This document shows, in pieces, positions 32,139 to 34,273 of a stretch of 64,000 nucleotides of DNA. The notes under the pieces were generated by a model. The model made no database searches and was not told the origin of the DNA. It saw only the letters and a program-made list of their open reading frames with translations. This DNA comes from Halobacterium noricense (GTDB taxonomy: Archaea > Halobacteriota > Halobacteria > Halobacteriales > Halobacteriaceae): NCBI RefSeq assembly GCF_021233435.1, contig NZ_CP089468.1, positions 2,590,597-2,654,596 on the forward strand. The letters are read 5' to 3'. The position numbers and the translations under genes are program-made. How positions within the stretch are numbered: the stretch's first letter is position 1; every line of letters starts with the position of its first letter.

Positions 32139-32520
32139 CAGTCTCCCCGCGGTCGGCGGCGGCGAAGAGGTCGTTTGTGAGTTCGGTGGCGTCGTAGTAC
32201 CGCCAGTTGCCGTCCTTCCGCCGAGTGACGAGTCCGGCGTCGACGAGGTCCGAGAGCGCGTGGCTGACGGCGCTGTCGGAGACGTCGACGAGCGGTTCGA
32301 GTTCGCAGACGCAGCGCTCGCCGTCGCTGGCGGCGAGCACGCGCGCGAGCCGGTAGCGGGTGTCGTTGCCGAGCACCGCGAACACGGACTGAGTGTCGTC
32401 GTCGAACGCGCCGTCGGCGAGCCCGTGGAGCTCGTCGAGGCGCCGCTCGACGTCGCCGTCGCAGCACTCCCCGAGTTCGTCGGCGAGCAGCCGTCGCAGT
32501 CGGTCGGAGCTCTGAGCCAT
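32131..32520 (-). CDS. arsR: ArsR-family metalloregulatory repressor
   Basis: A 129-aa winged-helix repressor. The sensor-region motif ERCVCELEPLVDVSDSAVSH (about 71-90) has the CxC of arsenic-sensing ArsR proteins in the alpha-3 position. It is followed by the recognition helix and LVTRRKDGNWRYYDAT. Further cysteines (ECC) lie near residue 19. It is the first gene of the ars operon, and dyads just upstream of its start are plausible operators, so autoregulation is likely. Confidence 0.93.
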   Translation of the reverse strand: MAQSSDRLRRLLADELGECCDGDVERRLDELHGLADGAFDDDTQSVFAVLGNDTRYRLARVLAASDGERCVCELEPLVDVSDSAVSHALSDLVDAGLVTRRKDGNWRYYDATELTNDLFAAADRGETDE

Positions 32521-32529
32521 ACATTCTAC

Positions 32530-32580
32530 CTGAACGTGGCTTCAGATAGTTGTTCCGATGTGAACTGCTGTTCAGATAGT
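32530..32580. promoter_or_regulatory. Candidate ArsR operator with repeated half-sites
   Basis: Directly upstream of arsR there are two dyads: CTGAA-N6-TTCAG (32530-32545) and TGAAC-N4-GTTCA (32561-32574). The direct repeat TTCAGATAGT starts at 32541 and again at 32571, exactly 30 bp apart. This is the expected place for an ArsR-type repressor site. Confidence 0.6.
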
Positions 32581-32641
32581 GGGGTGGCCCGGCGCGTGTC
32601 GTAACGTATTTGAATTCCAGTCGGCTAGAGATGGATGCAGT

Positions 32642-32715
32642 GTCCGGGGTAGGGTAGTGGACTATCCTTCAGCCTTGTGGAGGCTGAGACGCGGGTTCGA
32701 TTCTCGCCCCTGGAC
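32642..32715 (+). tRNA. tRNA-His(GTG)
   Basis: The acceptor stem pairs GTCCGGGG with CCCCTGGAC (one G-T wobble). The first G can be read as an encoded G-1 opposite the C73 discriminator, the hallmark of tRNA-His, and this places T8 and A9 correctly. The D stem is GGGT/ATCC. The anticodon arm is CAGCC-TTGTGGA-GGCTG with anticodon GTG. The T arm is GCGGG-TTCGATT-CTCGC. No CCA is encoded. The 3' 22 bases recur twice downstream. Confidence 0.93.
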
Positions 32716-33100
32716 CTTTTCGCGACGAACGAAGTGAGGAGCGTAAAGTCCAGCAGGCGAGAGCGAACCCTGCAAGTCGCGCGCAGCGACCAGCGGGAGC
32801 GAGCACGTCTTGCTCCGGTTCGATTCTCGCCCCTGGACCTCTAATCTTCGAACGTCAACCGACCAGCGCCGCGTGCGCTGGTCGTTGACGAGAGTTCTCG
32901 AGCGTCCGAGAGAATTGAACCCTGTGAGCCGCAGCGCCGAGCGGAGCGAGGCGACCGTCTCACAACGGTTCGATTCTCGCCCCTGGACTGTTTCTTTCGA
33001 GCGACGACACGACGAACGACCGCGTAGCGTGTCGTTCGTCCGCGTCGCGAGCATATTGCGAACGACGAACGGGATGATAGTGGTACGCGCGCTCCAGTAG
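32716..33100. repeat. Tandem copies of the tRNA-His 3' end with inverted repeats
   Basis: Not a gene. The tRNA 3' segment (starting GGTTCGATTC, ending CCTGGAC; native copy 32694-32716) recurs at 32817-32839 and 32967-32988. Both extra copies are preceded by related GC-rich sequence with GAACCCTG and AGCGGGAGCGAG-like elements. A long near-perfect hairpin lies at 32853-32890 (core CGACCAGCGC-CGCGT-GCGCTGGTCG). A perfect one lies at 33011-33040 (GACGAACGAC-N10-GTCGTTCGTC). No integrase is nearby. The repeats are too few, and the spacers too long, for CRISPR. Confidence 0.85.
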
Positions 33101-34273
33101 TCAGGGTGCGGATTGACCGCTCGCGCCGGGAATCTTCGGCTCCTCGCTGACGCCCGTCGACTGGATGATGTCGAAGGCAGTCATGAGGTCCGTGCGGGAG
33201 ACGAGCCCGACCATCTCGTCGTCCTCGTCGACGACGACGAGGCGGCCGACGCCGTGCTCCTGCATGGCGTCGAGGGCGTCCATCGCGTTGCTGGACTGGG
33301 GAATCGTGTAGACGTCCTCGGACATCACGTCCTCGACGTGGATGGCGTCGCGCTCGACCGGTTCGACGTCGCGGGCGTCGTCGAGCGTGACCATGCCGAC
33401 GACGCTGCCGTCGCGCATGACGGGGTAGCCGGTGTGGCGCTGTTCGAGCATGCGCTCCATGAGTTCGGCGACGGAGTCGTCGGCGTCGACGGTGTGGACG
33501 TCGTGGGTCATGATGTCGGCGACGCTGACATCCTGGAAGACGGCGTTCATGACGGTGCGCTGGGCTTCGCCGGACGCGCCGATGTAGATGAAGAAGGCGA
33601 TGGCGATGAGGATGAGGTTGAACCCGAGCAGGCCGACGATGCCGAGCAGGAGCGCGAACAGCTTCCCGACCTCGGCGGCAATCTGGGTGGCGCGGGCGAA
33701 CGAGCGCTTGCGGGCGAGCAGCGCGCGGAGGACGCGCCCCCCGTCCATCGGGAAGCCGGGCAGGAGGTTGAACGCGGCGAGCGCGAAGTTCATCAGCGCG
33801 AGGTAGCCGAAGACGAACCGGAACGTGTCCAGTGACGCTGGCAAGAAGTGGAGCGCGCCGAACGACAAGACGCCGAGCGCGATACTGACGACGGGGCCGG
33901 CGATGGCGATGAGCAGTTCCTGGCTCCACTCCTCGGGCTGGTCGGAGAGGCTGGCGATGCCGCCGAGAATCCACAGCGTGATGGAGTCGATGGGGAACCC
34001 GAAGTGCATCGCGACGACGCTGTGGCCGAGTTCGTGGAGGACGACGCCGGCGAACAGGCCGACCGCCGCGGCGATGCCGAGGTACCACCGCATGTTGCCG
34101 TCGGTGAGCGCGGCGGCGTCGAGGTTCGCGTTGAACGGCACGCTGTTGAGCGTCTCTATCCAGACGTCGACCTGCATCCCGATGAGGTAGGCGAACACCG
34201 GGAGAATCAGCAGGAACGTGACGTCGAGTTTGATCGGGATGCCGAACGCGCTCCCGATTTTGAAACTTCGCAT
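33101..34273 (-). CDS. Site-2-protease-like M50 metalloprotease with CBS pair
   Basis: A 390-aa membrane protease that would cleave transmembrane substrates within the bilayer. The zinc motif HELGH lies in GVVLHELGHSVVAMHFG (about residue 82) and the third ligand motif in LLPGFPMDGGRVLRAL (about 178). About six hydrophobic helices precede two C-terminal CBS domains (SVADIMTHDVHTVDADDSVA and HVEDVMSEDVYTIPQSSNAM). The CBS pair suggests control by adenine nucleotides. The ATG at 34273 was chosen; a TTG lies 6 bases upstream. Confidence 0.93.
   Translation of the reverse strand: MRSFKIGSAFGIPIKLDVTFLLILPVFAYLIGMQVDVWIETLNSVPFNANLDAAALTDGNMRWYLGIAAAVGLFAGVVLHELGHSVVAMHFGFPIDSITLWILGGIASLSDQPEEWSQELLIAIAGPVVSIALGVLSFGALHFLPASLDTFRFVFGYLALMNFALAAFNLLPGFPMDGGRVLRALLARKRSFARATQIAAEVGKLFALLLGIVGLLGFNLILIAIAFFIYIGASGEAQRTVMNAVFQDVSVADIMTHDVHTVDADDSVAELMERMLEQRHTGYPVMRDGSVVGMVTLDDARDVEPVERDAIHVEDVMSEDVYTIPQSSNAMDALDAMQEHGVGRLVVVDEDDEMVGLVSRTDLMTAFDIIQSTGVSEEPKIPGASGQSAP

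Follow-up and report, generated by a model that had tools for sequence, protein, structure and literature searches.

Extra copies of the tRNA-His 3' end in Halobacterium noricense as candidate units of a tRNA-addressed hairpin family of haloarchaea

Archaeal integrases are known to prefer the 3' end of tRNA genes, and that of SNJ2 prefers the acceptor end itself (PMC8371274). Repetitive extragenic palindromic (REP) elements, miniature inverted-repeat transposable elements (MITEs) and the PATEs of Haloquadratum (PMC3119063) are short, non-coding and palindromic, and are present in many copies per genome. In this study, we analyzed a tRNA-His gene of Halobacterium noricense that is followed by two extra copies of its own 3' end (the tail). 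The gene lies in a 64-kb stretch of contig NZ_CP089468.1, which is referred to below as the window. Folding showed that the extra copies are the 3' arms of hairpins of about 90 nt. We interpret them, with a confidence just short of even, as two units of a non-autonomous and mobile hairpin family that is addressed to the tRNAs of haloarchaea. A unit consists of hairpin 1, an anti-tail arm, a conserved core and a tail copy, in this order; it measures about 110-150 bp and is located directly downstream of the tRNA.

Several described systems share part of these properties. Haloarchaeal tyrosine-integrase elements (SNJ2-like and relatives) are found here at the same tRNAs as the units, but the units, at the length given above, have no integrase, carry a conserved hairpin and lie outside the elements. 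Like integron cassettes, the units form arrays in which every unit ends in an imperfect hairpin whose 3' arm matches the insertion site, and like attC sites they have a strand-specific fold with internal loops and are gained and lost as a whole. Unlike integrons, they have no IntI and, as a rule, no cassette genes, and their arm is a tRNA end, particular to each tRNA, rather than an attC consensus. They resemble REP elements, MITEs and PATEs in their small size, palindromic form, lack of coding content and copy number, but they are not scattered; they are addressed to tRNA 3' ends, their arms change with the tRNA, and no link to a transposase was found. Like tRNA-like structures and tRNA gene fragments, they hold T-arm and acceptor 3' sequence. 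However, they lack the 5' strand of the T-stem, and no T-loop or cloverleaf is formed because, at the T-loop positions too, the tail is paired with an uninterrupted anti-tail arm. The inverted repeat of a unit is that of the tRNA tail. The units come nearest to intergenic palindromic elements; what is new in them is that their arms match the neighboring tRNA. No description of such tRNA-end hairpin units was found in the open-access literature searched or by searching with a stretch of core sequence.

The tail of tRNA-His (32694-32715, GGTTCGATTCTCGCCCCTGGAC) recurs as an exact 22-mer at 32817-32838 and 32967-32988, in agreement with the sequence-only reading from which this work started. No further match was found in the window, even when three mismatches were allowed (0.01 matches expected by chance), and none within two mismatches of its first 20 bases was found elsewhere in the 3.3-Mb genome. 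The locus is built as follows.

32643..32716, + strand: tRNA-His (GTG) gene (ARAGORN; Rfam RF00005, 48.4 bits)
32721..32743, + strand: unit 1, short hairpin 1 (CGCGACGAACGAAGTGAGGAGCG), after a T-rich stretch
32748..32769, + strand: unit 1, 5' arm of hairpin 2 (anti-tail), an imperfect reverse complement of the tRNA-His tail, by folding
32770..32816, + strand: unit 1, core of hairpin 2, type alpha (CTG CAAG TCGCGCGCAGCGA..GCGAGCACGT CTTG CTCC)
32817..32838, + strand: unit 1, 3' arm, an exact copy of the tRNA-His tail
32854..32889, + strand: unit 2, long hairpin 1 (GTCAACCGACCAGCG..CGCTGGTCGTTGAC), by folding
32904..32921, + strand: unit 2, 5' arm of hairpin 2 (anti-tail), by folding
32922..32966, + strand: unit 2, core of hairpin 2, type gamma
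32967..32988, + strand: unit 2, 3' arm, an exact copy of the tRNA-His tail
33001..33048 (about), + strand: hairpin 1 past the last tail, with no hairpin 2 after it, by folding

The predicted folding energy is -54.4 kcal/mol (z -6.4) for the hairpin at 32748-32838 and -40.1 kcal/mol (z -3.3) for that at 32901-32988. Covariance model R1 scores the whole hairpin 2 of units 1 and 2 at 80.9 and 69.1 bits, respectively. The earlier reading had described related stretches ahead of the two copies. This holds for GAACCCTG, which precedes both (32765-32772 and 32917-32924), but AGCGGGAGCGAG is exact only ahead of the first copy and is replaced by AGCGGAGCGAG ahead of the second. What had been overlooked is that GAACCCTG is the end of the 5' (anti-tail) arm together with the conserved CTG of the internal loop, and that the tail copy is the 3' arm. 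The long inverted repeat that had been seen after each extra copy was also found by folding (32854-32889 and about 33001-33048). The unit to which the latter belongs is probably truncated, since its hairpin 1, which is similar to hairpin 1 of the unit in relative G002, has no hairpin 2 after it. A tandemly growing structured element derived from the tRNA, the second of the two explanations offered at the outset, is the closer of the two; however, one array after tRNA-His mixes alpha and gamma units, and simple tandem growth is therefore not enough.

A consensus of hairpin 2 was built from 16 hairpins of this genome and its relatives (the seed alignment). It runs from the arm helix through a 2x3 internal loop (CU opposite UCC, AAC or AUC) and a five-pair stem to the core, whose interior contains regularly spaced U.U, C.A, GCAxGA and tandem GAxGA loops. 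Both sides change in 13 of the 17 pairs of the seed alignment, with a covariation score of 0.462 against 0.182 after shuffling; none of 500 shuffles reached the observed value, and slid controls stayed at or below 0.11. For 105 distinct sequences the corresponding values are 14 of 17 pairs and 0.251 against 0.107 (0/500 shuffles), values to be read with caution because this alignment had been fitted to the structure model. Hairpin 2 thus has covarying helices, as structured RNAs do. The triloop is GNA in 73 of 83 alpha cores, where the search pattern fixed the first G and not the last A, and unpaired internal loops are present in the imperfect hairpin at the 3' end of each unit. Because the sheared G.A features fit only the tRNA-sense strand and G.U pairs outnumber A.C mismatches in the outer helix (27 to 12), the evidence points to this strand as the one that folds, either as RNA or as single-stranded DNA. 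A kink-turn reading of the core was rejected: the bulge and the GA order do not fit that motif. In Rfam 15, only the tRNA itself scored above the gathering threshold over 32500-33200. At positions where tail copy and tRNA differ, the anti-tail arm follows one or the other in 4 and 3 cases, too few to tell which it follows.

The main rival explanation is that hairpin 2 is a structured RNA of the tRNA 3' trailer, transcribed with or after the tRNA and acting in termination, in 3' processing or as a regulator. Its anti-tail arm would then be sequestered by the tail copy and kept from mis-pairing with the tRNA. The strong covariation, the conserved non-canonical loops (from the 2x3 loop to the GNA triloop), the excess of G.U over A.C and the constant position of the hairpins, on the tRNA strand and just downstream, all agree with such a role, as does vertical inheritance at some loci. 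However, the hairpins occur sporadically at a given tRNA even between close species, their number per genome ranges from 0 to over 20, and RNA function alone does not explain the exact acceptor-end copies or the insertion and deletion of whole units at the tail. The fitting of the larger alignment to the structure also weakens the covariation argument. We consider this explanation possible, although somewhat unlikely.

The correspondence between unit and tRNA extends to other tRNA genes of this genome. At the threshold used, 15 of the 46 tRNAs are followed by a strong copy of their own tail, while the tails of other tRNAs were found at the same places in 1.45% and own-tail copies upstream in 0/46. 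Model R1 gave 21 matches at E<1e-3. Fifteen lie just downstream of tRNA genes, each with the tail of its own tRNA; in another three, elements of about 2.5, 16 and 28 kb separate the hairpin from its tRNA; one is an orphan and two are tail-less. The latter kind is seen at C1:884257 and C1:2664722, where near-identical tail-less beta-type core hairpins stand within longer repeats near protein genes. When the 3' flanks were read, the same plan was recognized after the tRNAs for Phe, Met (two), Glu (two), Lys (two), Gly, Arg, Asp, Ala, Ser and His. Shorter hairpins made from the acceptor end only follow Ala-ggc, Arg-cct and Arg-gcg, and tRNA-Leu(caa) has a minimal unit with an unrelated core.

Model R1 matched 284 of 292 Halobacteria genomes in a search that scored 15 matches per genome; matching genomes usually had from several matches up to this scored number. 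None of 126 genomes of the phylum outside the class Halobacteria had a match. The exact core was found in 85 stretches of GTDB genomes, all with haloarchaeal names except one uncultured archaeon. In named genomes, a tRNA on the same strand lies 47-414 nt ahead of 68 of the 83 cores. Among 73 compared units, 40 copy all 20 of 20 tail bases (tRNA positions 54 to 73), and identity per position is 86-100%. Both the sequence and the structure of the alpha core are conserved between genera and between tRNAs. This conservation bears on a neutral origin, in which tandem duplication or template switching at tRNA ends would leave the order tail, anti-tail, tail without selection. Double template switching does yield a direct-inverted-direct order, and the minimal Leu(caa) unit with its unrelated core would suit it. 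Nevertheless, a conserved and covarying alpha core speaks against it as a full account, as do the differing unit types within one array, and we regard this origin as very improbable.

A plasmid origin was also considered and rejected. One plasmid match, on a Natronorubrum bangense megaplasmid (L330, 2362-2580), is a tRNA-Val(cac) with a hairpin unit and tail of its own. The other two, on Haloplanus (L331, 2001-2030) and Natrinema (L332, 2001-2030) plasmids, are tail-less hairpins with an alpha core loop that adjoins a TFB-family gene; the core loop therefore exists outside the tRNA context too.

The other explanation offered by the sequence-only reading was that the extra tails are fossil attachment sites, the remains of successive integrations and deletions. 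Each would be a former attR that was displaced by an integrative element, which has since decayed. These tRNA 3' ends are indeed targeted by tyrosine-integrase elements, in line with the integrase preferences cited above. At tRNA-Val(gac) of this genome, a 2.5-kb element has 22-bp attachment (att) copies at both ends and is followed by the hairpins, and at six named loci a tyrosine integrase lies just upstream of the hairpin (6/6) and never inside a unit. The one of these integrases that was checked in Pfam has Phage_integrase and Phage_int_SAM domains. However, the element stands between tRNA and hairpin in all of these cases, and at most of the six loci an att copy of the tRNA acceptor end separates the integrase from the hairpins, so that the real elements have their own attR ahead of the hairpins. 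The elements observed have no core at their ends, and their decay would not account for one and the same covarying hairpin at many tRNAs throughout Halobacteria. Of the original proposal, the precise gain and loss of units from tail to tail described below stands, but the conserved hairpin beside so many tRNAs is left unexplained, and we consider fossil sites unlikely, with a low probability.

A search of 80 loci, each up to 8 kb long, found no integrase downstream of the hairpin and none beyond those of the upstream elements. Since the elements sit between tRNA and hairpin, the units are not part of them: elements inserted at the tRNA and pushed older hairpin units away, and the units are not element ends. 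As in integrative elements, a direct repeat of the tRNA 3' end flanks each unit on either side, but the units hold only hairpins, with no integrase gene between the two tail copies. A role as decoy attachment sites is rejected for now, because integrases were found only between tRNA and hairpin.

Larger insertions occur at other tRNAs of this genome. An integrated, provirus-like element of about 28 kb at tRNA-Val(tac) (C1:223000-251200; L335, L336) carries a cluster of five additional tRNA genes (Leu, Val, Ala, Thr, Leu, 229003-229533), and a tyrosine integrase is located close to the far end of the element. An insertion of about 16 kb separates tRNA-Leu(tag) from its hairpin unit (C1:1776700-1793100; L334); its att copy takes in much of the 3' part of the tRNA, and no SNJ2-like integrase was found in it by hidden Markov model. 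Genes were also seen in this position. In relative G008 (L011, 1585-2427), a single HNH-endonuclease gene (PF01844) separates tRNA-His from a damaged hairpin unit whose tail copy is mutated. In Halorubrum alkaliphilum (L139, 3182-4328), a nucleotidyltransferase gene (PF01909) and a neighbor that is HEPN-like in look, with no Pfam match, lie between tRNA-Ala(ggc) and its hairpin unit. This locus, which has no integrase, is possibly a gene-bearing unit. Gene cargo as a rule is not supported, as it was seen only there and, with a damaged hairpin, in G008.

Comparison of the tRNA-His locus among relatives showed that the three-copy layout is not conserved: they carry from zero to two extra copies. 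Extra units are absent from G003, G006 and G011; one is present in G001, G002, G005 and G010, one and a degraded second in G004, and two in G014 and in this genome (G000). The order is alpha then gamma here and gamma then alpha in G004. The left half with the short hairpin 1 of unit 1 is also found 3' of tRNA-His in G001, G006 and G010. As for the surroundings, a membrane metalloprotease/CBS gene lies downstream of the array in this genome (33001-33140 of the window), while in several relatives tRNA-His is followed by another gene, which is lipoprotein-like; the end of the array here coincides with a rearrangement.

In G011, the sequence that follows the single tail aligns with the flank past the final tail in G002 (score 72) and not with that past the first (15). 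When all tRNAs of four genomes were compared for empty and filled sites, the same preference of the empty-site flank for the last over the first tail of the filled relative was seen at Glu-ttc (87.5 v 14), Arg-cct (59.5 v 12.5), Arg-gcg (57 v 21.5), Leu-caa (60.5 v 18) and Asn-gtt (51 v 21). At these five genes and tRNA-His, relatives thus differ by precisely one unit, and the alignment gaps run from tail to tail, less cleanly at Asn-gtt. The Glu-ttc unit is present in three genomes and absent from G011, which is best read as a precise loss; that of Leu-caa, present in one of four genomes, is best read as a gain. G011, the closest relative compared, is without about ten units found here and has a few that are absent here at those tRNAs. 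In G002, a G to A change in the T-loop of tRNA-His is repeated in the tail copy, but the anti-tail arm lacks it; this pattern speaks for exchange between tail copies and not for compensation inside the hairpin.

The anatomy of the units, their correspondence to their own tRNAs, the covariation, the spread through Halobacteria and the presence or absence of whole units at tail junctions were all observed directly, and they argue for the tRNA-addressed mobile family. Units would leave, and probably also enter, by recombination between tail copies. One possible agent is slipped-strand or microhomology deletion across the hairpin; direct-repeat deletion helped by the hairpin would explain the losses. 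Another is a tyrosine recombinase specific for tRNA tails and acting in trans, which would explain gains, arrays and homogenized tails. The tRNA-sense fold, as single-stranded DNA or trailer RNA, may be kept by selection as a substrate of recombination or as protection of the tRNA end. Having no gene of their own, the units would be non-autonomous.

Several observations weigh against mobility. Clear losses, such as that of Glu-ttc in G011, could be simple deletions between direct repeats, and the only clear gain is at Leu-caa, where the core of the unit is different. Inheritance throughout the genus is stable for some units (that of tRNA-Gly ccc, recognizable by its GAGCCC signature), and this would fit a host function equally well. 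Core relatives that lack a tail occur twice in this genome and twice on plasmids. Neither a circular or free unit nor a recombinase dedicated to the hairpin was found. The core was found neither exactly nor with gaps in IMG/VR, with 0 matches in a phage collection, and a viral origin of the units was rejected on these grounds.

A bolder extension of the mobile-family interpretation, which we think doubtful, is an integron-like system of haloarchaea. Folded-strand units would be recombined into tRNA 3' ends by a recombinase of the host or of an element, each unit would be re-addressed to its tRNA through its own tail and anti-tail, and tRNA 3' ends would serve as cassette platforms throughout the class.

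If the family is real, it raises the question whether the hairpin is a DNA substrate of recombination or an RNA, either of which would be new for archaea as far as the open-access literature goes. It would also explain repeated tRNA ends that are often taken for integration scars, and may provide a marker of recombination at tRNA ends. The tRNA 3' ends of nearly all sampled haloarchaea would then bear an unannotated element whose arms are tied to, and evolve with, the neighboring tRNA.
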